This document shows, in pieces, positions 11,074-52,800 of a stretch of DNA of 64,000 nt (its first letter is position 1; each line of letters opens with the position of its first letter). The position numbers were made by a program, and so were the translations under genes. Source of the stretch: Hymenobacter sp. DG25B. GTDB lineage: Bacteria; Bacteroidota; Bacteroidia; Cytophagales; Hymenobacteraceae. The notes beneath the pieces are model-generated. The model had not been told where the DNA came from, ran no database searches, and was given only the letters and a program-made list of their open reading frames with translations. The stretch spans positions 2,232,001 through 2,296,000 of the forward strand of contig NZ_CP010054.1 of assembly GCF_000801315.1 (NCBI RefSeq). Reading direction: 5' to 3'.

Positions 11074-11970
11074 ATGTTTCGTTTTCGTACCCCGCTTCTC
11101 CTGGCTTCGGCCACTTTCGCTGCCGGCCTCTCGCTCAGCAGCTGTGAAACCAAACCGGCTGCCGCTACGGAGCAACCCGTAAGCACGCCCGCCGCCGATA
11201 CCACCGCGGCCGCCAGCGCATCTACTACACAAGCCCCGGACCCCAGCAGCATTCCGGCCAGTAATATTGCTAATGCGGCCGCCATTACGGCCCGCCCGCA
11301 GGTTCCTATTCTGTGCTACCACCAAATCCGGGACTGGCGCGCCAAAGACTCCAAAGCCGCCAAAGATTACATTGTGCCGGTAGCTGAGTTTAAAAAGCAG
11401 ATTAAAATGCTGGCCGATAGCGGCTACCATACCATTCTGCCCGACCAGCTGTACGCCTACCTCACTACTGGTGCCAAGCTGCCCAGCAAGCCCGTCATGC
11501 TCACCTTCGACGACACCGACCTGGACCAGTTTACCATTGCCAAGCCCGAAATGGATAAGCACGGCTTTAAAGGCGTGTTTTTCGTGATGACCGTTAGCCT
11601 GGGCCGCCCCAACTACATGACCAAGGCCATGGTAAAGCAGCTTTCCGATGAAGGCCACGTTATCGGCTCGCACACCTGGGACCACCATAACGTGAAGAAA
11701 TACCAGGGCCAGGACTGGGTAACGCAAATCGAGAAGCCCACCAAAACGCTGGAGGAAATTACGGGCAAAGACATCAAGTATTTTGCTTTCCCCTTCGGCC
11801 TCTGGAACACGCAGGCCATTCCCGAGCTGAAAAAGCGCGGCATGGTAGCGGCCTTCGTGCTGGCGGAAAAGCGCGACCAGCAGGACCCGCTCTTCACCAT
11901 CCGCCGCATTATTGCCAGCGGCTACTGGAGCCCCCGCACCCTGCACAACAGCATGGTAAACAGCTTTTAA
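11074..11970 (+). CDS. Polysaccharide deacetylase lipoprotein
   Basis: A 298-residue lipoprotein (lipobox LSSC, Cys24) with a linker rich in Ala, Thr and Pro to about residue 75 and then a NodB-type carbohydrate esterase domain. Seen: TFDD motif (Asp146 catalytic base, Asp147 metal ligand) and SHTWDHH with metal ligands His200 and His204. Such enzymes remove N- or O-acetyl groups from polysaccharides; PgaB-type proteins are lipoproteins that deacetylate exported poly-GlcNAc. It sits immediately before the synthase/glycosidase region, convergent with the first synthase, so action on that polymer is plausible but inferred. Confidence 0.88.
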   Translation: MFRFRTPLLLASATFAAGLSLSSCETKPAAATEQPVSTPAADTTAAASASTTQAPDPSSIPASNIANAAAITARPQVPILCYHQIRDWRAKDSKAAKDYIVPVAEFKKQIKMLADSGYHTILPDQLYAYLTTGAKLPSKPVMLTFDDTDLDQFTIAKPEMDKHGFKGVFFVMTVSLGRPNYMTKAMVKQLSDEGHVIGSHTWDHHNVKKYQGQDWVTQIEKPTKTLEEITGKDIKYFAFPFGLWNTQAIPELKKRGMVAAFVLAEKRDQQDPLFTIRRIIASGYWSPRTLHNSMVNSF

Positions 11971-12001: not shown

Positions 12002-12040
12002 AAGGGCCTTCTGTAAGAATTACAGAAGGCCCTTTTCTTT
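12002..12040. terminator. Intrinsic terminator overlapping a stop codon
   Basis: A 15-bp perfect stem (AAGGGCCTTCTGTAA) with a 3-base loop, followed by a T-rich run on the plus strand. The right arm reaches the last codon of the convergent synthase gene. It clearly ends the deacetylase transcript. Confidence 0.8.
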
Positions 12041-14563
12041 TTTAGATGAAATAGCGCGAGCCATAAGTTCGCTGGCATCGGGCGTTACGAGTTGCCCAAA
12101 ACCGGCATAGCCAATTACAGCGCGTACTTCCGGATACTGCCGCATCAAATATTGAGAGGTGGCACTGATTTCCTTCGTAACAATAGGCTGATTAATCAGC
12201 AGCACCGGTTTGTAGTGCAAATCGATACGAGAGGCCAGATTGCGCCGTAGTATGGTATAAGGCTTTTTAGAAGAAGGTATAACGACCCTGCTTGCATTAG
12301 CTACCTGTACTTCAGCCGCAATCCAATCGATATAGGGGGCTCCTGGCGAGTAGGTGGCTACCGAATCCTGATAAGGCGGGGTCCATACCCAATTTACATT
12401 AGTGGCTTTTTGTTGGGTGAAAAGCTCAACCATGTAGCGCCAGCGCTGCCGATATTCAGCTGGGGTAGCAGAGGCCAGAATAGGCCGCAACAAGATAGGA
12501 CCAGGTAAAGCAGCTGCCTGCCGTGCCATTTTTCTGACAGCTGCCTCCGTCATAGCTCCGGAAGAAAGGTCTAGAGTTACCAGCGGCACCTGCCCAAAAG
12601 CCATAATAGCCCGCAGGCCTGCTACGGGCAACGCCTCATCCGTGCCACTTTTGTAGTTAAAGCTTACAATACTGATTTTAGTTAACCGATTATTGCCCAC
12701 CAGTTGTCTATCTCTCTCCAGAGGAGAATTAGGGACCGGGGAAACTACTGCAACAGGACTATTACCTGGCAACAAGTTGGCAGAACGTGCTGCCCAGCCA
12801 GCCATCATATCCCGTTGTGAATTATCAAGGTGCTGTATTACAATATTGCCTCCAGCAACTAAAGTAACCAGAAGAAAAGCCAGCTGTAGAGATACTGCCC
12901 GAATGCGGGGTATTAGATGCCCTATTTTAAACTCTATTTGCTGCCATTGCAGTAATGCCCTGCGCATGAGCCGGGTAGCAGTTATATCCCGGATTAAATT
13001 ATGCACCATGATATGCTGCCCCATGAAAGCAGCCATCAGCAAAATGCACGCGTTTAGTATGGCAAAGCAGAACATGATCCGGGTGTATGGATCTCGAATC
13101 AGTATCATGCCATATTTGGCAGCGGCAATGGAAATGAGCGCTACCAGGATATTAGGCAGGGCAATGCGCCATTCGTTACGTTCTTCCCCCTCTTTAGGCG
13201 TAGGAATGTAAGGTACTTTTATTCGAAAAATAGCATATAAGAAACCCAAAGTGTAAATCCACCAAGTTCCAACCCTTAGTAAACCACCTGCCAAGTGAAG
13301 TCCCTTCTCCTGTGGGTCGCGTAGCCAGCGCTGTGCATAAAGCCGAATCAGTAAAGAAATAATAGTGACCGGGAATAAATACCAGACAAATTCCAAAATT
13401 GGGACATGCCAGGGAATCTGAGCCATTACCAGCGCCAGTATTGGCACCAGAATATCAATCAACGCCACTACACCGGAGAAGAAATGGAGGGGTAGGGTGA
13501 AGTAATGCAGGCGCTGGCGCCAGGTAAATTTGGAGAACAGGCGCGGATACACGTGGAAAAGCAGATCAAAGCAACCCCTGGACCACTTCAGCTGCTGCGC
13601 ATAATACGCTGCGAGCGAAGAAGGTACTAGTCCGCGGCTAACAATGACGGGGGCATACACCGATTTCCAGCCCTGGGCATGCAGGCGCATGGCCGTGTGC
13701 ATATCCTCCGTCAGCCCGGCCGCATGCCCGCCAATAGAATCCAGGGCCGCCCGCCGAAACGTGCAGTTGGCCCCAATGGCCTGGGCCGTGCCGTAGCTGT
13801 TCATGCCCATCATCAGGGGACCATAAAAATGGTAGGTCTGCTCGGCGGCGCCCCGCGCCACCAGGCTTTCCTGCTGATTGCCGTACGCCTGCACCACCTG
13901 CACAAAGCCGATGGCCGGATCCTGGAAATACGGCAGTACCTGGTCCAGAAAATTGGGGGTGGGCACGTGGTCGGGGTCGAGCACGACGCAGAACTCGCCC
14001 GTGGCCTGGCGCAGGGCGTTATTGATGTTGCCGGCTTTGGCGTCGACCTTAACCTGGCGCGTGACGTGGACTACGCCCAGCTTGGCACAGACCTCGCGCA
14101 GGTAGGGGTCGTTGCCTTCGTCGCAGAGGTAGCTCGTGTGCGGGTAAGTAATAGCCTGTATGGCCTGCAGCGTGCGCACAATCATTTCCCGTGGCTCGCC
14201 GGGGCAGGCCGTCGTTAAAATATCGACGGTAGAGTATGTTCCTGATGGGGCTGGTAACGGGTTTGGTATTGCTACCCGCATGTAGTGATACCACTCATGC
14301 AGCATTCGAAGCATCTTAAAGCCCAGAGAAATGACCAGGAGCCAGAATAAGGGAGCAAAGCCAATATGTTTCTCGTCAGCAAACCACCAAAGGAAATGCC
14401 CAGTGAAAAAGATACCTAGCAGTATCAAAACCTGCATCTTCCGCAACCCTTTGGCCGGCTTATAGGTAACGGTGACGGGGTGGCTTTTGGCTTTTTTAGT
14501 TTTGTTTAATGGTGTTGAATAAGTACTTGCCTTCGAATCTTGCGTATCTAATAGTGTCTGCAC
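12020..14563 (-). CDS. Processive GT2 synthase fused to GH26-like domain (copy 1)
   Basis: An 847-residue membrane glycosyltransferase of the cellulose/hyaluronan synthase type. Two N-terminal membrane helices (about 42-62 and 68-85) precede the GT2 domain with Asp148 (CDEGND), DPDH (Asp196/198), TED (285-287) and QQLKW (323-327), a Lys variant of QxxRW. Several membrane helices follow (about 350-580). The last 250 residues resemble a GH26 TIM barrel (RWRYMVELF, TNVNWVWTPP, YIDWI, KPVLLI), but where GH26 enzymes have HEMN and the nucleophile in AEFG, this protein has RPILAS and INQP, so the domain appears catalytically dead. It is divergent from a GH-A glycosidase gene and is paralogous to the gene at 18900-21452. 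Substrate unknown. Confidence 0.9.
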   Translation of the reverse strand: MQTLLDTQDSKASTYSTPLNKTKKAKSHPVTVTYKPAKGLRKMQVLILLGIFFTGHFLWWFADEKHIGFAPLFWLLVISLGFKMLRMLHEWYHYMRVAIPNPLPAPSGTYSTVDILTTACPGEPREMIVRTLQAIQAITYPHTSYLCDEGNDPYLREVCAKLGVVHVTRQVKVDAKAGNINNALRQATGEFCVVLDPDHVPTPNFLDQVLPYFQDPAIGFVQVVQAYGNQQESLVARGAAEQTYHFYGPLMMGMNSYGTAQAIGANCTFRRAALDSIGGHAAGLTEDMHTAMRLHAQGWKSVYAPVIVSRGLVPSSLAAYYAQQLKWSRGCFDLLFHVYPRLFSKFTWRQRLHYFTLPLHFFSGVVALIDILVPILALVMAQIPWHVPILEFVWYLFPVTIISLLIRLYAQRWLRDPQEKGLHLAGGLLRVGTWWIYTLGFLYAIFRIKVPYIPTPKEGEERNEWRIALPNILVALISIAAAKYGMILIRDPYTRIMFCFAILNACILLMAAFMGQHIMVHNLIRDITATRLMRRALLQWQQIEFKIGHLIPRIRAVSLQLAFLLVTLVAGGNIVIQHLDNSQRDMMAGWAARSANLLPGNSPVAVVSPVPNSPLERDRQLVGNNRLTKISIVSFNYKSGTDEALPVAGLRAIMAFGQVPLVTLDLSSGAMTEAAVRKMARQAAALPGPILLRPILASATPAEYRQRWRYMVELFTQQKATNVNWVWTPPYQDSVATYSPGAPYIDWIAAEVQVANASRVVIPSSKKPYTILRRNLASRIDLHYKPVLLINQPIVTKEISATSQYLMRQYPEVRAVIGYAGFGQLVTPDASELMARAISSKKEKGLL
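13761..13888. repeat. 128-bp tract identical to 20680-20807
   Basis: Part of the GT2 domain in synthase copy 1. The 128 bases are identical, base for base, to the matching part of copy 2, inside a longer region of very high similarity (about 13490-14140 against 20405-21060). The flanks of the two genes differ far more and copy 1 has more A/T at third positions there, which points to gene conversion or strong constraint. Confidence 0.85.
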
Positions 14564-14826
14564 AGTCAGTCCCCTTTAGCTGGTTTTAGCCATAATCACT
14601 TATACAGCAATGAAGGCTAATACCGAAAAACAGGGTAAAAAGGTTCAGATAGCTCTATAGTAATTGTATTTAATATTGCTTTTATTATAATAAAATAATT
14701 TAATTTCTATTTAGGGTTAGTGATGGAGTGATATAGAAGGCTTACCCACTTTCTAATGGATGTATTTGTTTCAAGCGGTTCTTGGAGTGGGTTACTTTCT
14801 TATGACTGAAAAAAACTAATTAAAGA
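14564..14826. promoter_or_regulatory. AT-rich divergent intergenic region, copy 1
   Basis: A 263-base AT-rich spacer between the divergent synthase and glycosidase genes. It must hold both promoters. No clear TAnnTTTG -7 element was found and no obvious operator repeat was seen. Confidence 0.35.
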
Positions 14827-16143
14827 ATGGGTTTTACATTCAGGGTTCTAGCTGCAGTTACCCTTTTGGGATTGATATCTTGTAACCAAAATAGAGGTTC
14901 GGAAAATGGTCTTGTATCAAATCCAACCAACGTTGTAAGGTTGGAACAATCCGGTAGCGGGTATCGATTGACTCGGAACAGTAAACCTTTTTTTATCAAA
15001 GGAGGGGCCGGATTACAGCACTTCGATAAGCTAAAGGCTGCCGGAGGCAATTCAATTCGTATCTGGACTACGGAGTATGCTGATGAGGTCCTTAATGCTG
15101 CACACCAGCAAGGATTAGTAGTGATGCTTGGATTATGGATAAAGCCAGCGCGAGAGGGTATTGATTACTATGATCCCGAAGCACTACAAACTCAACAGGC
15201 AAGCATCCGTGAACAAATCCTTCGTTACCGCAATCATCCCGCCCTTCTTATGTGGAATGTTGGAAACGAATATGACATTGAAGCTCCCAGTCCCAAAGTT
15301 TTTCAAGCAGTTAATGCTATAGCAAAAATGATCCATGAGTTAGACCCTAATCATCCGGTAACAACAACTATTCTCGCGAATCCTAACTCAGTTGACCACT
15401 TTATTAATTTGTGTTCTGACGTTGATATTCTATCCATCAACGTATTTGCAGGGCTAGATTATTTTCCAAGGTTGTTAGACAAACACGGATTAACTAAACC
15501 TTACATAGTAACGGAGTTTGGGGCCAAAGGACATTGGGAGGCTCCCTATACTGCATGGAAAGCTCCCCTGGAACAAACCAGTACCGCTAAGGCAGGCTTT
15601 ATACTTCCTCGGTACCGTGCGAGTATTGCAACAGATACTGCTCACTGTTTAGGTGGATATGTTTTCTTCTGGGGTACAAAATATGAACAGACCACTACCT
15701 GGTTCAGCCTTTTCGGTGCTAAAGGGGAAAAGACTGCTACTGTAGACCTGATGCAATACCTGTGGACAGGTAAGTACCCTAGGAATCGGGCCCCCGAAAT
15801 TGGCCGCCTCCGCTTCGCTGGTGGGTACGGTACTAATAACCTTCAACCGCAGGCTGGCAGCCTGCAGGATGCTAGCGTTACTGCTTCAGATATAGAAGGA
15901 GATTCTCTACACGTAGTATGGCAGGTATTTCCCGATAATAATCTACTGGGTAGAAATAAGAAGAAGGATATAGCCCCGGAAGAAATACCCAACTCTATTA
16001 TAGCTGCCCACGGGTTGCACGCAATGGTAAGGGTTCCAAAGAAACCAGGTCCTTACCGGCTTTTTGTGACGATATATGATGGAAAAGGGAGCATTGCCAC
16101 CGCCAATGCTCCCTTCTATAGCCGTATAAAATCAACTGATTGA
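14827..16143 (+). CDS. Clan GH-A glycosidase lipoprotein (copy 1)
   Basis: A 438-residue lipoprotein (ISC, Cys19) with a TIM-barrel glycoside hydrolase domain of the GH2/GH5-like type. Seen: FIKGGAGLQHF and NSIRIWTTEY at the start of the barrel, the acid/base Glu148 after Asn147 in MWNVGNEYD, and the nucleophile Glu230 in PYIVTEFGAKG. The last 90 residues look like an Ig/PKD-type beta domain (SVTASDIEGDSLHVVWQVF, GPYRLFVTIYDGKGSIA). It diverges from the GT2 synthase and has a paralogue at 21669. Codon use is more AT-rich than that of the paralogue. It probably trims or transglycosylates the polymer made by the adjacent synthase (inference); the exact GH family needs a profile search. Confidence 0.85.
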   Translation: MGFTFRVLAAVTLLGLISCNQNRGSENGLVSNPTNVVRLEQSGSGYRLTRNSKPFFIKGGAGLQHFDKLKAAGGNSIRIWTTEYADEVLNAAHQQGLVVMLGLWIKPAREGIDYYDPEALQTQQASIREQILRYRNHPALLMWNVGNEYDIEAPSPKVFQAVNAIAKMIHELDPNHPVTTTILANPNSVDHFINLCSDVDILSINVFAGLDYFPRLLDKHGLTKPYIVTEFGAKGHWEAPYTAWKAPLEQTSTAKAGFILPRYRASIATDTAHCLGGYVFFWGTKYEQTTTWFSLFGAKGEKTATVDLMQYLWTGKYPRNRAPEIGRLRFAGGYGTNNLQPQAGSLQDASVTASDIEGDSLHVVWQVFPDNNLLGRNKKKDIAPEEIPNSIIAAHGLHAMVRVPKKPGPYRLFVTIYDGKGSIATANAPFYSRIKSTD

Positions 16144-16149
16144 AATATG

Positions 16150-18366
16150 CTAGCGGCCGGTGGTAAGGATAATAGGTTGCCAGTGTATATTGGTTCCTTC
16201 CTGTACCTGCAGCATATAGTGGCCGGATGGTAAATCAGCCACAGGCAGTTTCAATGAATTTGTCATTTGCATTTGAGGGCTGAATATTTGACTCCGGCAC
16301 ATTTTTCCTTGTATAGAATAGAGGCGGAGTGCCACAGTAGATCCTGTAGACTGATTACAAGCTACCTGTACCATCTCCCGTGCCGGATTTGGGTAAACCG
16401 ATATTGCTGCTTTAGTGCGCGAGCCGATTTTAGCAACCTGGACACTTGATAAGCTTTCTTTCCCATCTCTGTCTACTTGCCGGAGCCGGTAAAACACCGT
16501 TGTGCCAATAGGAGCTGCATCCGTAAATTTATAAGCCAGCACCTGCGTACTATTTCCCGCCGCTTCTACCCGTCCTAATGCCACAAACTGATCTGGGCTG
16601 GTGCTGAGTGCCCGTTCGATCTGAAAGTGGCTGCTGTTTCGCTCGGAGGCAGTATTCCAGGTAAGCATTACGCCCGTTGGACAAAGTGCGGCCTGCCAAT
16701 GCGTAAGTTCCACAGGCAAAGGGGGGGAGCTAACCTGGATTTTACCTTCCCACGCGCCTATGTTCACCGGCTGATTAACTAAGGGAGTTGCATTACCAAA
16801 AAAATCACGCGTGCCTATACTCCAGCCAAATTCCTTGATTAGGTTTAGACCTTTGCCTGTCAGGGTGGAGGTAGGTTGTAACTGGTAAGGCTCCGTGTCA
16901 GAAGTGGTAAGGCTGCTTCTTAGGCTACTAGTTCCAAAGGAGGTACTTGGTAGCACAAGCTTTGGATCTTCACTTACTCCACATAAAACCGTGTTCAATT
17001 TTTCCTGGGTGGTAGCGGCCTGCCAGCCAGCTAGGCTGGAGTAGGTTGTACTTCCCCATTTGATTTTAAAGGTCGCTTCTGAGCTCCAGTAGCAATTCCC
17101 TTGGAACAATGCCCCACTGGCGTACGGGGCTGATACCAGTTCAATGCCGCCGGTAGTCTGAAAAATGTTGTTGCGGAACGTTACAGCACTGATGCCATTG
17201 CTACTGAGATATACTGCTTTTGGCTGAGCGGTATTCTCAACAGTAGTAGGTGTGAGGTAGACAATGTTATTGTAAATGGCTGCCCGCTGAATTCCCCCGT
17301 TCGACCCCGACGACCAGACGGCAATAGCTCCCTGGCCATAGCGACGGGCATCATTCTCACTGATATTGTAACGGATAATAACATCCGTTAAGGGCGGGGC
17401 ACCCGGATACTGTGCAATCAGATAGCCAGCTCCATCATTATCATGGGAGTAGTTATACTGCATGGTGGAGTTTGTGCAGCCGCCATCAATGTCAAACCCG
17501 CCGCCGTCATGAGCAAGGCCGGACCGGTTATGGTGGGATTCAGAGTTTTGAATCACTAGGTTGTTGCAGCACCAACCCCAGATACCCACCGGTCCACCGC
17601 TTGGGTTCGCATTTAGCCAACCATTGTTATACGCCTCGCAACGCTCAATTAGTACACCATTAATGCCTGAGACAACAATTCCGTTGCCCGTGTGGGTAGT
17701 AGTTATATCGGCTCTGCCCGAATTATTGTACGCCTTAGTATCAGCAATGTACCAATTGCTATGTGCTTTCAGGCTTTCAGCGTAAGAGCTGATTCCGGCT
17801 TCTCCGTTATCATGCGCTTGGGAATTGGTGATACGGACATCAGCGTAACCGCTGGTACCTTTCCAACTTCCAATATTGATACCCGAGGCCCGGTATCCAC
17901 TTGCTTCTACGCTATCCAGGCGCAGGTATTGTAAATGGGTATTAAGCGAGTCAGTATAAAAAATGATGCCTGAGTTGGTATTACTTAGTCTGCCCGAGCC
18001 GGCAAAGGAGAGCCTGCGCAGCTCAATACCAGCCGTGTTATATGCATAAAAGCCATAGGAGTCACCACTGGTAATGGTAGCCCTGCCCTTGCCGAAAGAG
18101 GAAAATATAATAGGCTTACTGCTAGTTCCCGCTGTGCTGGCACGCAGGTAGATACCGCCACTAAAGGTGCTACTTCCTTCAAACAAAATTTTATCACCCG
18201 GCTGAAAGCGGGTTTTGTTTACCCGGGCAATTGTTTTCCAAGCGGTAGTTTGGGAAGTGCCCTCATTTGCATCATTGCCAGCGCTACTGACATAATAAGT
18301 TGATGCAAACAGGATTTGAGGACTAAGACATACTACAAGTAAAAAAAGTATAAATTTTGCCTTCAT
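16150..18366 (-). CDS. T9SS-secreted parallel beta-helix protein
   Basis: A 738-residue secreted protein: signal peptide (MKAKFILFLLVVCLSP to FAS), then YYVSSAGNDANEGTS, a typical opening of right-handed parallel beta-helix proteins, and repeated helix turns to about residue 540. Next comes a fibronectin-like module (LTHWQAALCPTGVMLTWNT) and a C-terminal type IX sorting domain (ISVYPNPAREMVQV to GHYMLQVQ). Proteins with this layout include polysaccharide lyases, epimerases and surface adhesins; no catalytic motif can be assigned. It lies between the two synthase/glycosidase units, so its target may be the same polysaccharide. Its stop is only 6 bases from the convergent glycosidase stop. Confidence 0.88.
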   Translation of the reverse strand: MKAKFILFLLVVCLSPQILFASTYYVSSAGNDANEGTSQTTAWKTIARVNKTRFQPGDKILFEGSSTFSGGIYLRASTAGTSSKPIIFSSFGKGRATITSGDSYGFYAYNTAGIELRRLSFAGSGRLSNTNSGIIFYTDSLNTHLQYLRLDSVEASGYRASGINIGSWKGTSGYADVRITNSQAHDNGEAGISSYAESLKAHSNWYIADTKAYNNSGRADITTTHTGNGIVVSGINGVLIERCEAYNNGWLNANPSGGPVGIWGWCCNNLVIQNSESHHNRSGLAHDGGGFDIDGGCTNSTMQYNYSHDNDGAGYLIAQYPGAPPLTDVIIRYNISENDARRYGQGAIAVWSSGSNGGIQRAAIYNNIVYLTPTTVENTAQPKAVYLSSNGISAVTFRNNIFQTTGGIELVSAPYASGALFQGNCYWSSEATFKIKWGSTTYSSLAGWQAATTQEKLNTVLCGVSEDPKLVLPSTSFGTSSLRSSLTTSDTEPYQLQPTSTLTGKGLNLIKEFGWSIGTRDFFGNATPLVNQPVNIGAWEGKIQVSSPPLPVELTHWQAALCPTGVMLTWNTASERNSSHFQIERALSTSPDQFVALGRVEAAGNSTQVLAYKFTDAAPIGTTVFYRLRQVDRDGKESLSSVQVAKIGSRTKAAISVYPNPAREMVQVACNQSTGSTVALRLYSIQGKMCRSQIFSPQMQMTNSLKLPVADLPSGHYMLQVQEGTNIHWQPIILTTGR

Positions 18367-18899
18367 GCACGAGCCGTTAAACGTTTACGGCTCAATATTA
18401 TAGCATTGTTCTAAATATAAAAATAGGAATGTTTTTCTAATTATTTTCACCAGTACTTATATTGGTTATTTTATATTAGACTGGCGTTTTAGGTGTATTA
18501 TTTATTCGGTTGTGTCATATAATGCTACTTTATTTAGTACTCTTGCCTACCGTGCTATTGAACTCTAGACTGATATAAAAAGCCCTACTCATGCATGAGT
18601 AGGGCTTTTATCCATGTCTTTAAGAATGATTTTCTTCTTGGGTTCGTAAGGAAAAAGCATTTATCCGCTTACCAATTATCAGATTCCCTAAAGCTGTACC
18701 TCTGTGTGTTTAGGACTCTATAACTATACTTACTGATTAGATATGAAATAGAAATGTTTGAACTTTTAGGTGAACAAGAATACTCTTCATCTGAAAAAAG
18801 CACTTATTACTTAAGGGATAAAATTATGATATAATATTTATAAATCTGTATATTATAAGATGCCTTTTTACGCAGTTAACCCACATATCTAAGTGTCAT
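18367..18899. other. 533-base AT-rich spacer without a clear gene
   Basis: This strongly AT-rich gap separates the beta-helix gene start from the stop of synthase copy 2. It contains one strong hairpin (18577-18610). A 26-codon frame at 18754-18834 is the only noticeable open frame and lacks support. No transposon ends or known RNA were seen; it may be decayed DNA between the duplicated units. Confidence 0.5.
18577..18610. terminator. Intrinsic terminator hairpin
   Basis: AAAAGCCCTACTCATG and its complement, flanked by A and T runs on both sides. It lies about 290 bases past the stop of synthase copy 2 (minus strand) and probably ends that transcript, leaving a long 3' untranslated region. 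Confidence 0.7.
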
Positions 18900-21452
18900 T
18901 TATAATCCCGAAAGCACTTTGGGGCTACTGCTAATAAGGCCGGCCAACCGCTTATTAGCACTGGTAGGGCGGCTTAGACTGGCTTTCTGTTCTAAGGGAG
19001 CAGTGGTATTTGGCCCAGGCGTGCTGAATACCACTGCTTTTATTTCGGGGTAACGTTCCGAGAGTCGTTCTATCTGTTGAGCGGGCATTTCATTGATTGG
19101 GGCCGGCAAAATCACCATAACCGGGGTTTGGTGAAACTCGGCGCGGGTGGCCACCTGGTGCCGGAAAGAAGCATAGGTAGCCGTGGGGCGTTGGGCCGCG
19201 CTTACCGGGGTGCCATCTACGCAAAGCCAGTCTACGCTGGCAATGCCCGGGTAATAGGCCGCCAGCGAATCGGAGGCGGGGGGCGTCCATACCCAAATGG
19301 TTTTTTCCACGCCGGCTTTCCGGAGGCCATCCACCAGCTTTTGCCAGGCCCGGCGGTAGCCCCGGGCACTGCGGGCCTGAATCTGGGGACGAAACATGAG
19401 CGGCCGGGGGAAGCGGGCTAATATCCGCACTTTCGCCAGCCAGGCCGTGTCCCTCAGGGCCCCTTCGGGCACGGCCCAGCTGAGTAGGGGCATTTGGCCA
19501 TCCCGCAGGTAGTTCACCAACTGCTGGGGAGAAACCGTGGGGAAAGCCGTGGCCGGAAAATCCAGCCCGATAATTTCCGTGGCCAGGGGAAAGTCTTCCC
19601 GGCTTGCAGCCTTCGGCGCGAAAGAATAGTAGCTGGCCAGCGTGGTAGGATCTTCGGGGGCGCTTAGTATATGGCCGGTGCGTACCTGGTCATCCCCCGT
19701 CAGCAGCCAAAGCTCACTGTTATAACGCTGGCGCTGGAGCATCCAGGAAGCTGCCTTCCACTGGCCGGCAGCTCCCAAAAATACCAGGAATAAGGCCAGC
19801 GGAACGGCTACTCTGCTAAAGGATGGCAGCAGGATACGGTGAATCCAGGTGTATGCCTGCTGCACGCGTAGGGATATAGCCCGGGTCCTATGTGTTCTTA
19901 CTAAAAGATTTTTTAGGTTTCGAAGAAGAGCCTGCTGGCCCATCAGAACGGCCGCAATCATAATGCCCGCATTCAGGGCGGCCAGGCCGGCCAGCATCCA
20001 GCCATAGGCATCGTGCATCAGGCGCAGCCCATAGGCCGCCAGCGCCAAGGACGCCACCAGCATTAGAATGTTAGGCAACGCAATGCGCCACTCGTTGCGC
20101 TCTTCGCCTTCTTTGGGAGTGGGAATGTAGGGTACTTTTACATTGAGCAGCGTGTACAGAAAGCCCAGGGAGTAGATCCACCAGGTGCCTACCCGCAGCA
20201 GGCCCCCGGTGAGGTGTAGCCCCGCTTCATGCGGCTCCCGCAGCCAGCGCTGCGCCGAAAGGCGGATAAGCAGGCTCACGCCCATCAGGGGCATCATGTG
20301 CGCCACAAAGCTGGCTATGGATACGTGCCAGGGAAATTTGCTGAGCCAGAGCCCCAACAGCGGTACAAATAAATCAATAAGGGCTACAATACCGGAAAGG
20401 AAATAAAGCGGCAGGGTAAAGTAGTGCAGGCGCTGGCGCCAGGTAAATTTGGAGAACAGGCGCGGATACACGTGGAAAAGCAGGTCAAAACAACCCCTGG
20501 ACCACTTCAGCTGCTGTGAGTAATAAGCGCCCAGCGAGGAGGGCGCCAGCCCCCGGCTCACTACCACCGGCGCATACACCGATTTCCAGCCCTGGGCATG
20601 CAGGCGCATGGCCGTGTGCATATCCTCCGTCAGCCCGGCGGCGTGGCCACCAATAGAATCCAGCGCCGCCCGCCGGAAGGTGCAGTTGGCCCCAATGGCC
20701 TGGGCCGTGCCGTAGCTGTTCATGCCCATCATCAGGGGACCATAAAAATGGTAGGTCTGCTCGGCGGCGCCCCGCGCCACCAGGCTTTCCTGCTGATTGC
20801 CGTACGCTTGCACCACCTGCACAAAGCCTATTTCCGGATTCTCAAAGTAGGCCATCACCTTATCCAGAAAATCGGGGGTAGGGGCGTGGTCGGGGTCCAG
20901 TACCACGCAAAACTCGCCGGTGGCCTGGCGCAGGGCGTTATTGATGTTGCCGGCCTTGGCATCCACTTTCACTTGCCGCGTCACATGTACTACGCCCAGC
21001 AAATCACACACCTGGCGCAGGTAGGGGTCGTTACCTTCGTCGCAGAGGTAGCTGGTATGCGGGTAGGTAATGGCCTGCATGGCTTCCAGCGTGTGTACAA
21101 TCATAGCGCGTGGCTCGCCGGGGCAGGCCGTGGTAAGGATATCCACAGTACGCTGCTGGGCCGGGGCCGGGGGCAGCAGTGGCTCCCGCACATTTACATA
21201 GTGGTACCACTCATGTCCTAAACGCAGCAGCTTAAAACCTACTGAGAACACCAACAGCCAGAAAAGCGGGGCGTAGCCTATATGGTCGGGGTTGGCAAAC
21301 CAATAAACAAACTGTACCAGACAGAGTACCCCCAGGAAAACCAGCCAGCGCATTTGGCGCGTGCCAGCCACCAGCCGATACTGAATGCGGCTGTCTGCCG
21401 CCTGGATAGGAAGATTTTGGGTAATAGGTGCGGTGGAGGAGAGGTCGGGCAT
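18900..21452 (-). CDS. Processive GT2 synthase fused to GH26-like domain (copy 2)
   Basis: An 850-residue paralogue of the protein at 12020-14563 with the same order: N-terminal helices, GT2 domain (CDEGND, DPDH, TED, QQLKW), a cluster of membrane helices, and a C-terminal GH26-like domain. The last domain shows TIWVWTPPASDSLAAYYPG and VDWLCVDG, typical of GH26 barrels, but RPQIQA stands in place of the HEMN acid/base segment and VMVILPAP in place of the nucleophile segment. Unlike copy 1, the codon use is uniformly GC-rich. It diverges from the second glycosidase gene at 21669. Inference: it makes the same or a related extracellular polymer, the dead barrel guiding or binding the chain outside the membrane. 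Confidence 0.9.
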   Translation of the reverse strand: MPDLSSTAPITQNLPIQAADSRIQYRLVAGTRQMRWLVFLGVLCLVQFVYWFANPDHIGYAPLFWLLVFSVGFKLLRLGHEWYHYVNVREPLLPPAPAQQRTVDILTTACPGEPRAMIVHTLEAMQAITYPHTSYLCDEGNDPYLRQVCDLLGVVHVTRQVKVDAKAGNINNALRQATGEFCVVLDPDHAPTPDFLDKVMAYFENPEIGFVQVVQAYGNQQESLVARGAAEQTYHFYGPLMMGMNSYGTAQAIGANCTFRRAALDSIGGHAAGLTEDMHTAMRLHAQGWKSVYAPVVVSRGLAPSSLGAYYSQQLKWSRGCFDLLFHVYPRLFSKFTWRQRLHYFTLPLYFLSGIVALIDLFVPLLGLWLSKFPWHVSIASFVAHMMPLMGVSLLIRLSAQRWLREPHEAGLHLTGGLLRVGTWWIYSLGFLYTLLNVKVPYIPTPKEGEERNEWRIALPNILMLVASLALAAYGLRLMHDAYGWMLAGLAALNAGIMIAAVLMGQQALLRNLKNLLVRTHRTRAISLRVQQAYTWIHRILLPSFSRVAVPLALFLVFLGAAGQWKAASWMLQRQRYNSELWLLTGDDQVRTGHILSAPEDPTTLASYYSFAPKAASREDFPLATEIIGLDFPATAFPTVSPQQLVNYLRDGQMPLLSWAVPEGALRDTAWLAKVRILARFPRPLMFRPQIQARSARGYRRAWQKLVDGLRKAGVEKTIWVWTPPASDSLAAYYPGIASVDWLCVDGTPVSAAQRPTATYASFRHQVATRAEFHQTPVMVILPAPINEMPAQQIERLSERYPEIKAVVFSTPGPNTTAPLEQKASLSRPTSANKRLAGLISSSPKVLSGL
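20680..20807. repeat. 128-bp tract identical to 13761-13888
   Basis: Partner of the identical tract in synthase copy 1, same orientation, 6.9 kb apart. Direct recombination between the two would delete the first glycosidase and the beta-helix genes. Confidence 0.85.
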
Positions 21453-21668
21453 AAAAACTACCGGATATAGGGTGTGCTAAACCAAGCTGGAGCTTCGGCT
21501 AACCCAGAATATTAACCTGATGACATATGGATCTAATATAGGAAACCGATACCACTTAACTAATATTAAATATAATTTATTTACGTAAATATTTTACTAT
21601 CTTAGGTGTCTATCCTTTTCATTGCTCCTTAAGTGCAGTACCTTCAAAAATATATACAAATACTATTT

Positions 21669-23051
21669 ATGGGTTCTAACTACTCTTCGTCAGGGGCCAG
21701 CCACCTATTCGCTTTGATTTATCTGGTCGGTTTGGGAATACTGCCGCTCGTTGGCTGTCAGCGTACATCGGTTTCCTCAGATGTTACGCAGGCGCTGGTA
21801 GCCCCGGCCGGAGTTATTCCGGTGCAGGTGGTGCAGCAGCAGGGGCAGGCGCAGCTGCTGCGCGGTGGCAAACCTTATTATATAAAGGGAGCCGCCGGCC
21901 TGCAGCACTATGAGGCGATTCGGGAAGCCGGCGGCAACTCCGTGCGGCTCTGGACCACGGATTTTGCGGATACATTAATGAATGCCGCACATCAGAATAA
22001 TATTTCCGTAATGCTGGGCATCTGGCTGGAGCGGGAACAGGAAGGGTTTGACTACTATGATGAAGCGCAGGTGCTGCGCCAGCGCGAGTACGTACGCAAG
22101 CAGGTATTGCGGTATCGGCGCCACCCGGCCCTGCTGATGTGGAACCTGGGCAATGAGATGGACCTGAACGCCAAGAACCCAAAGGTGTATGAGGCCATCA
22201 ACAACCTGGCCGTGATGGTGCACGAACTGGACCCTTACCACCCCGTAACCACCACGCTTTCCGGCAACCTGGGCATGATCCGGAACGTGAAAGCCTGGTG
22301 CCCGGCTATTGATATCCTTTCCATAAATGCTTTCGGTAGTCTGGATGTGCTGCCGGAAGATTTACGCGGCTACGGCTGGACCAAGCCCTACATTGTAACC
22401 GAATATGGGGGCCTGGGCTACTGGGAATCTCCTACTACCACCTGGATGGCCCCACTGGAGCAATCCAGTACCAACAAAGCCGAAAACCTGCGCAAAGCCT
22501 ACGTAGGCACTATTCAGGCCGCCCGGGCGCAATGCATTGGGGCCTATGCTTTCTATTGGGGGCAGAAGTTTGAGTTTACCAACACCTGGTTTGGCTTGTT
22601 CACGCCAGAAGGCGAAAAAACGGCCATGATTGATGTGCTGCAGGAGCTATGGACCGGTCATAAACCCGCCAATACCTCTCCCAGGCTGGAGTGGCTGGTG
22701 CTGAACAAGCAGCAGGATTCCAGTAGTGTAAGTATTCCGGCCGGTTCCCGGGCTATGGCCTACGTAGGTGCCACCGATGCGGAAGGCGACACGCTGACGG
22801 CCCGCTGGGAGGTACGCCCGGATAAGCAAATCACGGAACGGTACGAGGAACGGAGTACGCCCACCGAGCCGCTGCCCCATGCTATCCGGCAGGCCACCGG
22901 GCTGCAGGCCGAGGTGGTTGCGCCGCGCACCCCGGGCTTTTACCGGCTTAGCGTAATAGTTTCCGATGGCAAAGGCAGCGCCGCCATGGCCAACCTGCCG
23001 TTTATGGTTACCGCCCGGCCGCGCCCTAAGCTGGTGGCCAGCCTCCGGTAA
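21669..23051 (+). CDS. Clan GH-A glycosidase (copy 2)
   Basis: A 460-residue paralogue of the glycosidase at 14827. ATG 21669 is chosen over an upstream GTG (21633). A hydrophobic segment ending LVGC suggests a lipoprotein, although the signal is long. Barrel motifs: YYIKGAAGLQHY, NSVRLWTTDFAD, acid/base Glu in LLMWNLGNEMD and nucleophile Glu in PYIVTEYGGLG. The C-terminal beta domain (AYVGATDAEGDTLTARWEV, GFYRLSVIVSDGKGSAAM) matches that of copy 1. Divergent from synthase copy 2 across a 216-base spacer. Both catalytic glutamates are present, so the glycosidase is probably active, in contrast to the barrel on the synthase. Confidence 0.85.
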   Translation: MGSNYSSSGASHLFALIYLVGLGILPLVGCQRTSVSSDVTQALVAPAGVIPVQVVQQQGQAQLLRGGKPYYIKGAAGLQHYEAIREAGGNSVRLWTTDFADTLMNAAHQNNISVMLGIWLEREQEGFDYYDEAQVLRQREYVRKQVLRYRRHPALLMWNLGNEMDLNAKNPKVYEAINNLAVMVHELDPYHPVTTTLSGNLGMIRNVKAWCPAIDILSINAFGSLDVLPEDLRGYGWTKPYIVTEYGGLGYWESPTTTWMAPLEQSSTNKAENLRKAYVGTIQAARAQCIGAYAFYWGQKFEFTNTWFGLFTPEGEKTAMIDVLQELWTGHKPANTSPRLEWLVLNKQQDSSSVSIPAGSRAMAYVGATDAEGDTLTARWEVRPDKQITERYEERSTPTEPLPHAIRQATGLQAEVVAPRTPGFYRLSVIVSDGKGSAAMANLPFMVTARPRPKLVASLR

Positions 23052-47293: not shown

Positions 47294-48073
47294 TTACTGG
47301 GCCGCCGGATACCAGTTGCGCAGCCGAACGTCGATTTTTTTATTGGCCTGGTTCACGGTTTTCTTGAAGCTCTCCACGTCGCTCAGGCCGTTCTGGCCCC
47401 GATAGTGATACGGATACACAATGCGTGGCCTGAAGGCCAATACGCCCTGCGCGGCCTGCGGCACATCCATGGTGTAGGGCAGGTTCATGCATACAAAGGC
47501 CACGTCGATATTCTTGAGGGCGCGCATCTCGGGTATGTCTTCGGTATCACCGGAGAGGTACACGTTTTTGCCGCCCAGGCTGAGCACGTAGCCGTTGCCC
47601 CGGCCCTTGGTGTGCATGGCGTCGGGGGCTTCGGGCAGGTTGTACATCGGAATGGCCGACACGCGCATGCCCAGCGTGTCGAGCTTCTGCCCGTTGCCCA
47701 GGATGCGGACCTGGCCTTTGTACTCGGCGGGCAGCTTATCGGCCACGGCCTGGGGCACAATCATTAGGGCCTTGCCCACGGAGAGGCCTGAGAGTGTCTG
47801 CGGGTCGAGGTGGTCGCCATGAATGTCGGTGATGAGGACCACATCGGGGGCGGCCAGGCCGGCGTAGGCGGCGGCTCCGCCGTAGGGGTCCACGTAAATG
47901 GTCTTGCCGCTCCAGGTTAGCACCACGCTGCCGTGGGTGATGGGCTGCACCGTGAGCGGGCCTTTCTTGGTGGCAATCTGGTCGGCCGCCGCCCGCGGCG
48001 CGGGGGCAGTTTGGGCCAGTGCCTGCGTAGTAACCGCCGCAAAGGCCGCCGCGAGGATAAGGGTAGATTTCAT
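47294..48073 (-). CDS. MBL-fold metal-dependent hydrolase
   Basis: A 259-residue secreted protein: signal peptide MKSTLILAAAFAAVTTQALA, then a metallo-beta-lactamase fold related to the UlaG/YtnP-like group: HGSVVLTWSGKTIYVDP, metal-binding motif LITDIHGDHLDP, VYLSGDTEDIPEM and YPYHYRGQNG. ATG 48073 is chosen by the signal peptide; an extension through the right repeat (to 48259) is not coding. The substrate is unknown. It is flanked by 120-bp direct repeats, which may indicate that it was inserted or can be excised. Confidence 0.85.
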   Translation of the reverse strand: MKSTLILAAAFAAVTTQALAQTAPAPRAAADQIATKKGPLTVQPITHGSVVLTWSGKTIYVDPYGGAAAYAGLAAPDVVLITDIHGDHLDPQTLSGLSVGKALMIVPQAVADKLPAEYKGQVRILGNGQKLDTLGMRVSAIPMYNLPEAPDAMHTKGRGNGYVLSLGGKNVYLSGDTEDIPEMRALKNIDVAFVCMNLPYTMDVPQAAQGVLAFRPRIVYPYHYRGQNGLSDVESFKKTVNQANKKIDVRLRNWYPAAQ

Positions 48074-48178
48074 CGAGTTTTTGTTGGTGGGTGAAGGGGA
48101 CCGGGTTGCTAACCCGGGACGGGGGCGAAAGTTCTGGGGGGAGGGGTAGCTAGCGTGTTTCGCAGGAGTGAAGCATAG

Positions 48179-48300
48179 AAAACGCCGCCCGGATTGCTCC
48201 AGGCGGCGTGGTTTCGGATTTGTTGCAATGCAGCAGTGCAGGTACAAACTACACCTCAAAGCTGGTCACGAGGTATGGCTGCGTCTAAACTCGCGCCAGT
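48179..48300. repeat. About 120-bp direct repeat, right copy
   Basis: Second copy of the repeat at 47151-47271, same orientation, 1.03 kb away. It also lies immediately after the stop of the AT-rich gene at 48314, whose insertion point it may mark. Confidence 0.75.
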
Positions 48301-48313
48301 GGGGCGCTACAAG

Positions 48314-49789
48314 TTACAAAGTGACATTAGAAGCAGAAGCTTTTGGACTTGCATCTATCAAGATAATATTTTCCTTATCCTCTAGCTTCAGTTCCTTTAA
48401 TACAGACGTTAAATGCATGTATTCACTTTGGTTGAAGTACATAATTACTTTAATAGAACTCTTGGTATAATTGGCTTCTTCATATACTTCAACTTGCTTC
48501 GCAAGATTCTGCTTCAGCTTGGAATTGGAAGCCAGTTTGAACTCTATAAGTGTTTTGTCAGCCGAGCCTTTTGAAACAGCATAGTCAACAGGGCCTCTAC
48601 CATTGTTAGTTTCCCTATTAACGTCAAAATCACTCGCAAACCAAGTCAGTCGGTAGATGATTTGCAAATCTTCCTCTCTTTTGATTGGTTGACCATTCAT
48701 GTAAAATAGCCTGTATCCATCATTTTTTTCAATGACGTCCTTTAAATAATTAAGTCTATTAAGTGATTGTTCGTAAGAAGATATTGGCTTGATATCATAG
48801 AAATTGCTGTTGTCAAGAAGGCGTTCAACTAAAGCCTTGATATTTCTTATGAAGAAAGATTCAACCTCTTCAACTTTTTGCTTTGAAATATTTTTAGCGC
48901 CCTGTTTGTTCTCTTCTTTGCTTTTTAGATAAAGTTTAATAATATCTGGAAACTGCATTATTGTTGCCTGGATTGCAGCAGCACGTTCCTTCTGTGAAAT
49001 TTTCTCATCTACAGGCTTGCTTGGTAGTTTTTCTGCGAAGTAGTTAAAGATTTCAGCTCTGAGTTGGCTATTGGGTATGCTATTGCATATTCTTTCAAAG
49101 TCTCCTCGTAAATCGTGAGAATTTATCCAGTTATCATCCTTAGTTAAAATATTTTTGGGTGTCAAAAGTACATAGTCATTAAAGATAAAAGGAAGTGTAA
49201 ATTCCTTTGGCATCCATCTTTGAAGAGTGTAGTCAAAATAAACTTTATCAACTTTAACAATTTTTACATTAGTGGGCAGCATGTGCTCTAAAGCAAACTT
49301 TTCAGTGTAATTGAGTAAAAATTCCTTTGTAAGGTTTGTGGTGAAGTCACTTATATTGTCTTTGCCTATACCTGTTTGAAACAGACCGGCTTTTTCCAAG
49401 TGGGATGATTCAGTGATTATTTCTTTTCCCAAATCATCAAATACAATATTTATTGAGGAGGAAAAAGTCTTTCCAAATTTAGGACCTAAGCCACTTCCAT
49501 TGTTTCCTATTTGACTATAGCCGAGCCAGTTTTGTTTGACTTCTCGAAATACATACCACGCTAATATTTGTGCTTCTGTTACTTGCCCATTTTCAGATTT
49601 TTGTTTTAAGAAAGCTAAGTAACGTAAGATATCCTCATGTAACTTTTGATACACTGGGTCTTTGCTTCCAAATAACAAAAATGGATCAATAAAAACCGGA
49701 AGGTCATTTATCAATGAGATATTAAAAGCTCCATAGGCTTCAAGAGTTTCTGGCTCGATGCCGAAGAAATCGGAAAAATATATATTCAT
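48314..49789 (-). CDS. Putative PD-(D/E)xK nuclease, AT-rich orphan
   Basis: A 491-residue protein of unknown family in an AT-rich gene, unlike its GC-rich neighbours (A/T at most third positions). The C-terminal part has a nuclease-like signature: Asp402 in GRGPVDYAVSK, then Glu416-x-Lys418 in TLIEFKLAS, followed by Gln432 and Tyr436 in KQVEVYEEA, consistent with a PD-(D/E)xK core with a QxxxY element. The first 350 residues are mixed helical and strand (FGIEPETLEAYGAFNISLIN, DPFLLFGSKDPVY) without a recognised domain. It has no methylase or other partner beside it and lies next to a repeat. A solitary anti-phage or restriction nuclease is possible; this is inference. Confidence 0.8.
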   Translation of the reverse strand: MNIYFSDFFGIEPETLEAYGAFNISLINDLPVFIDPFLLFGSKDPVYQKLHEDILRYLAFLKQKSENGQVTEAQILAWYVFREVKQNWLGYSQIGNNGSGLGPKFGKTFSSSINIVFDDLGKEIITESSHLEKAGLFQTGIGKDNISDFTTNLTKEFLLNYTEKFALEHMLPTNVKIVKVDKVYFDYTLQRWMPKEFTLPFIFNDYVLLTPKNILTKDDNWINSHDLRGDFERICNSIPNSQLRAEIFNYFAEKLPSKPVDEKISQKERAAAIQATIMQFPDIIKLYLKSKEENKQGAKNISKQKVEEVESFFIRNIKALVERLLDNSNFYDIKPISSYEQSLNRLNYLKDVIEKNDGYRLFYMNGQPIKREEDLQIIYRLTWFASDFDVNRETNNGRGPVDYAVSKGSADKTLIEFKLASNSKLKQNLAKQVEVYEEANYTKSSIKVIMYFNQSEYMHLTSVLKELKLEDKENIILIDASPKASASNVTL

Positions 49790-49811
49790 TTGTAAAGAAA
49801 AGTGTAAAATG

Positions 49812-49847
49812 AAAAGGGCACTATCTCAGAAAGATAGTGCCCTTTTA
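49812..49847. terminator. Intrinsic terminator after icmF
   Basis: AAAAGGGCACTATCT / AGATAGTGCCCTTTT with a short loop, 22 bases past the icmF stop and 22 bases before the ATG of the nuclease-like gene, leaving almost no room for that gene's own promoter. Confidence 0.85.
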
Positions 49848-49868
49848 TTAACAAAAGGAATTCAAACT

Positions 49869-52800
49869 CTACATATTCCGCCGATACTGCCCACCAACTT
49901 CAAACAAGGCATTGGTCACCTGCCCGAGTGAGCAGAACTTCACTGTTTCCATCAACTCCTCAAATAGGTTGCCATTGGCCACGGCTACTTGCTGCAGCTG
50001 CTTCAGGCGCTGCTCCGCAGTGCCCTCATTGCGTGCGTGCAGGGTCTGGAGCTGCGTGATTTGGAATTGCTTTTCCTCCTCCGTGGCGCGGATTACCTCG
50101 GCCGGGATGACCGTGGGGGAGCCTTTGGAAGAGAGGAAGGTATTCACGCCGATGATGGGAAACTCGCCGGTGTGCTTCAGGGTCTCGTAGTAGAGGCTTT
50201 CTTCCTGAATCTTGCCGCGCTGGTACATGGTTTCCATGGCGCCCAGCACGCCGCCGCGCTCCGTGATGCGGTCAAACTCCAGCAGCACGGCTTCTTCCAC
50301 CAGGTCCGTCAGCTCCTCGATGATGAATGAACCCTGCAGCGGGTTTTCGTTCTTGGCCAGGCCCAGCTCCCGGTTGATGATGAGCTGAATGGCCATAGCC
50401 CGGCGCACCGATTCCTCGGTGGGCGTGGTAATGGCCTCGTCGTAGGCGTTGGTGTGCAGGGAGTTGCAGTTGTCGTAGATGGCGTAAAGGGCCTGCAGCG
50501 TGGTGCGAATATCGTTGAAGTCAATTTCCTGGGCGTGCAGGCTGCGGCCGCTGGTCTGGATGTGGTATTTCAACATCTGGGAGCGGGCATCGGCGTTATA
50601 CCTCAGCTTCATGGCCTTGGCCCAGATGCGGCGCGCCACCCGGCCAATTACCGCGTACTCAGGGTCGATGCCGTTGGAGAAGAAGAACGACAGGTTGGGC
50701 GCGAAGTCATTCACGCTCATGCCGCGGCTCACGTAGTACTCCACAAACGTGAAGCCATTGCTGAGCGTGAGGGCCAGCTGCGTAATGGGGTTGGCGCCCG
50801 CCTCCGCAATGTGGTAGCCCGAAATAGACACCGAGTAGAAGTTGCGAACCTTCTCCTTAATGAAGTATTCCTGCACGTCGCCCATCAGGCGCAGGGCAAA
50901 CTCCGTGGAGAAGATGCAGGTGTTCTGGGCCTGATCTTCCTTCAGGATATCGGCCTGCACGGTGCCGCGCACCTGCGCCAGCGTACGTTTTTTGATGGTT
51001 TCGTACACCTCGGCGGGCAGCACCTGGTCGCCGGTTACGCCGAGCAGCATCAAGCCGAGGCCGTCGTTGCCTGCCGGCAGCTCGCCCTGGTAGAAGGGGC
51101 GGCCCACGCCTTTCGCGGCGTAGATCTGGTCAATCTTCTGGCTGACCTCATCTTCCAGCCCGTGCTCCTTTATATATAGTTCGCACTGCTGATCAATGGC
51201 GGCATTCATGTAGAACGCGGCAATGGTGGCGGCCGGACCGTTGATGGTCATGGACACCGACGTCATCGGGTTGGCCAGGTTGAAGCCGGAATACAGCTTC
51301 TTGGCATCATCGAGGCAGCAAACGCTCACGCCGGCGTTGCCAATTTTACCATAGATATCAGGCCGGTGGTCGGGGTCCTCGCCGTACAGCGTCACCGAGT
51401 CGAAGGCCGTACTCAGGCGCTTGGCCGGCAGGCCCGCCGATACATAGTGGAAGCGGCGGTTGGTACGCTCAGGGCCACCTTCGCCGGCAAACATGCGGGT
51501 AGGGTCTTCGCCTTCGCGCTTGAAGGGGAATACGCCGGCTGTGTAGGGGAATTCGCCGGGCACATTTTCCTGCAGCTGCCATTTCAGCAAATCGCCCCAG
51601 GCGGTGTAGCGCGGCAGGCTTACTTTCGGAATCTGGAGGTGGGAGAGGCTTTCGGTGTGCGTTTTAATGCGGATTTCCTTGTCGCGCACCTTAAAGATGA
51701 ACTCCGGGTCGCGGTAGGATTTTACCTTTTGCGGCCAGGTCTCCAGGAGCTTCCAATTTTGCCCATCCAAACGGAGCTTGACCTCCTCGAAGGTGCTCTC
51801 CAGGCCGGCCACGAGTGCTCCTGATCCGAGTCCATGGCTGCTGCTCCCGGTGCCAGATCCTCCAACGGCGGTGTTGCCGAGGCTTTGGACGGCTCCAATG
51901 GCTTGCCGGATTCCGAAGAGCTGCTGAGCAGTGTCAGCTTGTTTTTGAACCCACTGGTCATATTGGCGGTTGGTTTCGGCTATTTCTGAAAGGTAACGCG
52001 TGCGGTGAGGCGGAATGATGTAAATCTTCTCCGAGTCCTCCTTGCTGGTTTCCAGGTGAGAGGCAAACGGTACGCCCGTTTTGGCTTCTACCGTTGCCAG
52101 AATAGCGCGGTAGAGGCGGTTCATGCCGGGGTCGTTGAACTGGGAGGCAATGGTACCGAACACGGGCATTTCGTCCAGCGGCTGATTCCAGAGCTGGTGG
52201 TTGCGCTGGTACTGCTTGCGCACGTCGCGGAGAGCATCCAGGGCGCCGCGCTTGTCAAACTTATTGAGGGCAATAACGTCGGCAAAATCGAGCATGTCGA
52301 TTTTCTCCAGCTGCGTGGCCGCGCCGTACTCGGGCGTCATCACATACAGGCTGGCATCGGAGTGCTCAATGATTTCGGTATCGGACTGGCCAATGCCGGA
52401 GGTTTCGAGGATGATGAGGTCGAAGTCGGCGGCGCGTACCACGTCCACGGCGTCCTGCACGTACTTGCTCAAGGCCAGGTTGCTCTGGCGCGTGGCCAGG
52501 CTGCGCATATACACCCGCGGCGAGTTGATGGCGTTCATCCGGATCCGGTCGCCGAGCAGGGCCCCACCGGTTTTGCGCTTGCTGGGGTCTACGGAAATAA
52601 TGGCAATGGTCTTGTCCGGGAAGTCGAGCAGGAAGCGGCGCACCAGTTCATCTACCAGGGAAGACTTACCGGCCCCGCCGGTGCCGGTGATGCCCAGAAT
52701 AGGGGCTTTCTTAACGGAGGCAGAAGGATTCACGCGCTGGTCGGCGCCGCCCTCGGCCTGCTGGAAATCGGAAATCAGCTGGCCTTTCACCCGCTCAAAC

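Follow-up and report, generated by a model that had tools for sequence, protein, structure and literature searches.

A window of 64,000 nucleotides from the genome of Hymenobacter sp. DG25B (contig NZ_CP010054.1, positions 2,232,001 to 2,296,000; positions below are those of this whole stretch) carries two divergent gene pairs, at 12020-16143 and 18900-23051, in each of which a membrane synthase of glycosyltransferase family GT2, on the reverse strand, stands opposite a glycosidase on the forward strand. An initial annotation, made from the sequence letters, had described both pairs in these terms, and the arrangement is confirmed. The two synthases, of 847 and 850 residues, are 55% identical, and the two glycosidases, of 438 and 472 residues, are 46% identical. 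The elements on which the argument depends are the following.

12020..14563, reverse strand: synthase 1, 847 residues, a BcsA-like GT2 protein with membrane helices and a C-terminal GH26-type pseudo-barrel.
13514..14266, reverse strand: GT2 catalytic core of synthase 1, about residues 100-350, with LDPDH (195), TEDMHT (285) and QQLKW (323).
Residues 451-457 of synthase 1: PYIPTPK motif at the gating-loop position, C-terminal of the GT2 core.
12824..12892, reverse strand: extra transmembrane helix of synthase 1, about residues 558-580 by hydropathy (helix 558-595 in the model).
12023..12766, reverse strand: GH26-type pseudo-barrel of synthase 1, residues 600-847, with the acid/base loop deleted and N at the nucleophile position.
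14827..16143, forward strand: free GH158-like protein 1, 438 residues, catalytic E148 (15268-15270) and E230 (15514-15516), with LISC as a lipobox-like motif by eye.
18900..21452, reverse strand: synthase 2, 850 residues, with the architecture of synthase 1 as judged by sequence.
18903..19655, reverse strand: GH26-type pseudo-barrel of synthase 2, about residues 600-850, with the acid/base loop deleted and L at the nucleophile position.
21633..23051, forward strand: free GH158-like protein 2, 472 residues, catalytic E175 (22155-22157) and E257 (22401-22403), with LVGC as a lipobox-like motif by eye; its true start probably lies further downstream than 21633.

Hydropathy and a structural model of synthase 1 give the order of two N-terminal helices, the GT2 domain, a C-terminal set of helices, the helix at about residues 558-580 and, finally, the barrel. 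The cellulose synthase BcsA has a cytoplasmic PilZ domain at its C-terminal end; with one crossing more than BcsA, the synthase would, by helix count and model, place its barrel outside the membrane, on the periplasmic side. The window synthases differ from BcsA in further respects: they give no PilZ match at E up to 1, their C-terminal part being the GH26-type barrel; the CelA/BcsA motifs QxxRW and FXVTXK are absent from both, and in their place stand QQLKW (QQxKW) and VPYIPTPK (a PYxPTPK-type loop); and their scores against the CelA/BcsA model TIGR03030, 176.8 and 181.7 bits, are far below its cut-off of 699.1. Among the relatives described below, QQ(L/I/V)KW occurs in 139 of 141 synthases and an xYxxTPK-type motif in 128 of 141; named database relatives are annotated as glycosyltransferase, cellulose synthase or hypothetical protein. 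A separate observation is that the GT2 cores of synthases 1 and 2 (13484-14203 and about 20403-21122, both reverse strand) are far more alike than the remainder, third codon positions included, third-position identity being 0.60-0.85 at residues ~121-360 and 0.2-0.45 elsewhere. Recent gene conversion of the cores is unproven, given that third-position identity to synthase 1 over the same stretch is as high as 0.57-0.80 for a relative of synthase 2 in a different genome, and either conversion or constraint may account for the likeness.

The C-terminal barrels, recognized as GH26-like in the initial annotation, match PF02156 (GH26) with 21.3 and 20.7 bits, narrowly above the gathering cut-off of 20.2. 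A structure search with the whole synthase 1 model gave a list taken up by GT2 chains, and the barrel was therefore modelled on its own; by structure comparison this model has the GH26 TIM-barrel fold, and its closest solved relative, in fold and in sequence, is CtLic26A (Endoglucanase H), a GH26 lichenase. CtLic26A is a free, active enzyme, whereas the barrel has lost both catalytic residues: the loop with the acid/base Glu (HE motif after strand beta4) is missing from both window barrels, and N and L, respectively, replace the nucleophile Glu after beta7. Neither Glu is found in any of the 32 Hymenobacter-type barrels scored (one of them from Solirubrum), in which A, L and T are the commonest three letters at the nucleophile position. 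That the barrel would be unable to hydrolyse by the GH26 mechanism is thus strongly supported by its residues, in agreement with the dead state first ascribed to it. The same 32 barrels all keep both beta5 Trp residues (WxW), the PG motif, the beta6 Trp, the beta7 Pro and the Glu of YPE; the beta3 Trp is kept in 28 of them, synthase 1 being without it. Conversion of the barrel into an enzyme with a new set of catalytic residues would account for its retention, and repurposed TIM barrels exist; the acidic residues mostly kept among 32 positions surveyed are, however, the beta6 Asp (22/32) and the YPE Glu (32/32, before beta8), and this explanation appears very improbable. The C-terminal part of the synthase, used as sole query, matched 3 proteins, the query among them, and in plasmid records synthase 1 gave 538 matches at E up to 1e-10, none over 80% of the query length.

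The partner glycosidases had been described as live members of clan GH-A. Both Glu residues are indeed intact, and the assignment is now refined to GH158-like, a family that includes endo-beta-1,3-glucanases. Both proteins resemble GH158(Pro) (9oro, E 5.9e-84 and 6.7e-85) and BuGH158 (6pal, 1.4e-65 and 2.1e-57) over nearly their full length, the Ig-like C-terminal part of BuGH158 included. BuGH158 requires N136, E137 and E220 and sits in a polysaccharide-degradation locus (PMC7157763); here, in contrast, the protein is paired with a synthase, and NE and E align at the three positions in both window proteins. NE and E are likewise present in 128 of 129 free GH158 rows longer than 400 residues (not de-duplicated, with shorter or split copies excluded), the remaining row being an unscorable fragment. 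By eye, both window proteins look like lipoproteins.

Searches for the same fusion reveal that the system is not confined to the window. With synthase 1 as query, matches were obtained at E <= 1e-40 in 34 of the 120 genus genomes, at E <= 1e-60 in 24 of the 194 from the order and at E <= 1e-70 in 20 of the 395 from the class; the genome sets overlap, and few candidates were scored in each genome. Named genomes were also scanned with an alignment of 18 rows, which yielded 512 confirmed loci. The best 80 of these, ranked against a live triple fusion, come by their titles from Cytophagales, Chitinophagaceae, Pedobacter and kin, flavobacteria, Prolixibacteraceae and Balneolaceae; several loci, the Balneolaceae ones among them, are metagenome-assembled. 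Once rows identical over residues 101-500 had been taken out, 143 of 148 GT2 rows were left, namely 109 others and 34 of Hymenobacter type, of which one is truncated and two are fragments of a single split gene; proportions are those of this sample and no census, and triple fusions are favoured by the ranking against one. Among the 109 other rows, 84 exceed 960 residues, and in 82 of these the GT2 domain is followed by GH26-like and GH158-like parts (for example P0118, with E 2e-24 to 9oro and 1e-17 to CtLic26A); the other two, L129 and L130, are without the GH26 part. The window arrangement seems to be a reduced version of a GT2-GH26-GH158 triple fusion that occurs across Bacteroidota: the fusion that the initial annotation had called unusual stands as a synthase with a dead barrel, and its setting is refined accordingly. 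In a split form (L098:6184-10698, L099:6014-10401), a tetratricopeptide repeat (TPR) protein, a GT2 protein of ~540 residues and a separate live GH26 protein are encoded; L099 and L100, also of the split type, are from genomes of Hymenobacter, the window's own genus. The separate GH26 protein of L098-L100 starts, by eye, with its own hydrophobic segment, a pattern that a gene fusion would explain. The upstream gene of L098 and L099 encodes the TPR protein (by Pfam), whose C-terminal part looks like an outer-membrane barrel by eye, and we take this gene to resemble those of known synthase-dependent export operons. Duplication of the locus is seen a second time at L168 (Chitinophaga japonensis), where the unit of GH158 and triple fusion is tandemly duplicated, with HE in the GH26 part of one copy and PE in that of the other.

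Of the 143 synthases, 134 (33/34 of Hymenobacter type and 101/109 others) have a free GH158-like gene no more than 6 kb away; the nine without one include the three of the split type, L098-L100, and some that are situated at contig ends. GH158 alone is no marker of the synthase, as a homologue (E <= 1e-40) is present in 74 of the 120 genus genomes. Such near-constant pairing could suggest that the barrel serves as a protein dock, bringing the free GH158 or some other component of export to the synthase rather than binding the chain, and conservation beyond the cleft (the invariant Glu of YPE) is in line with this. A clade of 10 synthases, mostly from Pontibacter, consists nevertheless of GT2 proteins of ~600 residues that have no barrel and keep the free GH158 beside 9 of 10, and part of the strongest conservation is at the beta5 and beta6 ends; a docking role seems improbable on balance. 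Besides the two in the window, a third GH158-like gene is found in the same genome (C1:1564062-1565267; L220:7994-9274), unlinked to any synthase, and similar matches, at 41-45% identity, are present in many genomes of the genus.

The catalytic state of the GH26 part varies among relatives. Under a strict rule, by which a live domain has both Glu residues and L129 and L130 are left out for lack of the domain, 66 of the 125 domains are live and the other 59 dead, and the GT2 tree calls for no fewer than 10 changes; all 32 Hymenobacter-type domains are dead, as are 27 of the 93 others. A looser rule, by which His is also required, L129 and L130 are included and six rows with both Glu and no His count as dead, gives 60 live and 67 dead of 127, with 11 changes. 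The fused GH158 part is live in 19 and dead in 65 of 84 rows, with at least 4 changes. Across the 84 long rows, a live GH26 is combined with a dead GH158 in 53, both are live in 9, a dead GH26 is combined with a live GH158 in 10, both are dead in 10, and GH26 is absent and GH158 dead in 2. These change counts come from one quick tree (LG+G4, SH-aLRT) with several weak branches and could shrink; they are independent of the root, which, like the direction of change, is not established, the branch of the S. meliloti outgroup being 8.57 long. In 100 shuffles of the labels, 35-49 GH26 changes were counted, a result that shows clustering of the states only. For the Ferruginibacter-like rows L189-L197, which have odd motifs, the scores were read from alignment columns, and some misalignment is possible.

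Beside these computed observations of architecture, synthase 1 fold, catalytic residue loss, constraint and pairing, a mechanism may be proposed. The GT2 domain would polymerise glucose in the cytoplasm and thread the chain through its own channel, as its homology to BcsA suggests, and the extra helix would set the barrel, of the lichenase subgroup of GH26, at the periplasmic exit. Many relatives have an intact version of this barrel, whether as part of the fusion or within a separate membrane-anchored protein; in Hymenobacter, both Glu residues and the acid/base loop are lost, the core and several cleft aromatics are kept, and the barrel probably binds and orients the emerging chain, a glucan-binding role to which the aromatics and the selection described below point. 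The free, intact GH158-like neighbour, by its residues and its near-constant pairing, would cut or release the chain. The product is probably a beta-glucan with beta-1,3 bonds, either mixed-linkage (1,3;1,4) or beta-1,3, as the lichenase-type GH26 and the GH158 partners suggest. We give a probability of about 0.5 to the reading that each pair is a beta-glucan synthesis module in which the dead barrel binds and orients the chain and the free GH158 cuts or releases it; steering of the chain by the barrel, as envisaged at the outset, would fit the conservation pattern. The generalization that in QQxKW synthases of Bacteroidota and Balneolaceae the fused GH26 and GH158 pseudoenzymes act as chain receptors at the exit, the free paralogous GH158 being the live enzyme, so that holding and cutting of the nascent chain are divided within one system, is more tentative and falls somewhat short of even odds. 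On the best reading, the synthases belong to a little-described beta-glucan synthase family in which periplasmic glycanase modules have repeatedly turned into non-catalytic chain binders, the polymer and the guiding role being inferred.

Several observations weigh against a chain-binding barrel or a beta-glucan product. Cleft residues of live GH26 domains are gone in Hymenobacter, namely the beta2 Trp, the beta3 Glu (in 25 of 32) and the NYG loop. In a comparison of 13 pairs, the ratio of nonsynonymous to synonymous substitution rates (dN/dS) is 0.06-0.25 for the barrel in the 10 computable pairs, three of these with dS > 2, and 0.03-0.14 for the GT part in 12 of 13; the barrel is under purifying selection that is less strict than that of the GT core, and it evolves faster. 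This selection could reflect folding alone. The Pontibacter-rich clade of GT2 alone indicates that the barrel is not essential everywhere, and the identity of the polymer is read from nothing other than the partner hydrolase families. Part of this would suit a vestigial barrel: the free GH158 would have made the fused glycanases redundant, leading by stepwise loss from triple fusion to GT2 with a dead barrel to GT2 alone, with the barrel kept for folding or topology. The range of states among relatives, the barrel-less clade and the higher dN/dS of the barrel are in keeping with such a course; the presence of WxW, PG and the beta6 Trp in every Hymenobacter-type barrel scored and the purifying selection in all measurable pairs are not, and we consider a vestige unlikely, if less so than a dock.

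Among known systems, the nearest described architecture found is that of Pseudomonas Orphan/NdvB, a GH17-GT2 fusion whose barrel is treated as active and for which a cyclic beta-1,3-glucan is proposed (PMC10237404). There too a periplasmic TIM-barrel hydrolase and a BcsA-like GT2 share one polypeptide, with proposed processing of beta-1,3-glucan at the channel exit; in that system, however, the hydrolase is GH17, N-terminal and active, whereas here it is GH26 (often with GH158), C-terminal and often dead, with a live GH158 as a separate protein. The mixed-linkage glucan synthases BgsA (PMC5567048) and RiGT2 (PMC10374906) are likewise BcsA-like GT2 proteins, of the product class suggested here; RiGT2 has PilZ and BgsA a c-di-GMP-binding tail, and in the portions of the two descriptions compared a fused glycosidase barrel is not mentioned. 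The C-terminal GH153 domain of PgaB offers a parallel, since it too is a hydrolase domain, one that binds its polymer and is important in export; it differs in family and polymer, in being in a separate protein and in being catalytically active (PMC5933820). The window synthases gave no GH17 match, their barrel being C-terminal and not N-terminal. BcsA is accompanied by the hydrolase BcsZ. CcsZ is another hydrolase that accompanies a bacterial cellulose synthase (PMC7710045). Searches of open-licence literature turned up no title or abstract opening that describes a GT2-GH26 or GT2-GH158 fusion, which does not prove the absence of such a description.

How a synthase passes its growing chain to the parts that process and export it is an open question. 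The natural series described here, in which GH26 is separate and live, fused and live, fused and dead, or absent, on a closely related core, lets the roles of catalysis and of binding at the exit be weighed through comparison of relatives. It also points to a beta-glucan, possibly mixed-linkage, from environmental Bacteroidota such as Hymenobacter, Spirosoma, Pontibacter, Pedobacter, Chitinophaga and flavobacteria.

Two neighbouring genes had been assigned to the same pathway.

11074..11970, forward strand: polysaccharide deacetylase lipoprotein.
16150..18366, reverse strand: secreted protein with a type IX secretion system (T9SS) sorting domain, beta-helix-like according to the initial annotation and by eye.

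A deacetylase homologue is found within 6 kb in 15 of 34 Hymenobacter-type rows and in 2 of 109 others, and the gene is judged to be a mere neighbour outside the conserved system, contrary to what had been proposed. For the beta-helix protein the corresponding counts are 18 of 34 and 4 of 109; the case for it is weak, and the protein may be a genus-level addition at best and is probably not core. The deacetylase adjoins synthase 1 and resembles the PgaB and IcaB models (77.9 and 59.3 bits, below their cut-offs), which would suit a non-glucan polymer of poly-N-acetylglucosamine (PNAG) type trimmed by this enzyme. The synthases nonetheless score higher with the NCBIfam model CelA (177-182 bits) than with PgaC/IcaA (51-56 bits), all below cut-off, the partner hydrolases are from glucanase-containing families, and the deacetylase is rare beside other synthases; a PNAG-like product is therefore hardly to be expected. 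Downstream of synthase 2, a perfect-looking hairpin followed by T (18577-18609, in an AT-rich stretch) resembles a terminator by eye.

In the 4.36-Mb assembly (4 contigs), synthase 1 as query found the two window synthases and one weak partial match elsewhere. About 240 kb from the window (C1:2534545-2536356; L219:7546-9360) lies a gene for a membrane-anchored tandem GH26 protein of 604 residues, of which copy 1 has PEME and no nucleophile and copy 2 has HEME and ITEFG; relatives of ~560-590 residues are found near the synthase in several loci, for example L129, L130, L143 and L146. PF02156 found nothing in this genome at E up to 0.1, a search too blunt to show absence, since this genome does encode the tandem GH26 protein and the fused barrels, when searched as proteins, score above the Pfam cut-off. 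The tandem protein is matched in 6 of 120 genus genomes (one with an internal stop, one partial), 5 of which are among the 34 with a synthase match (Fisher p 0.007, uncorrected for kinship), 5 of these 34 having the split type only (open frame ~540-570 residues). As a general substitute for the dead barrel it was rejected, none being found in 29 of the 34. Elsewhere in the window, an AT-rich island (GC content 0.39 for 48001-50000) encodes a 491-residue protein (48314-49789, reverse strand) with a weak PD-(D/E)XK nuclease match (17.9 bits, cut-off 25.5), perhaps a defence-type or mobile gene.

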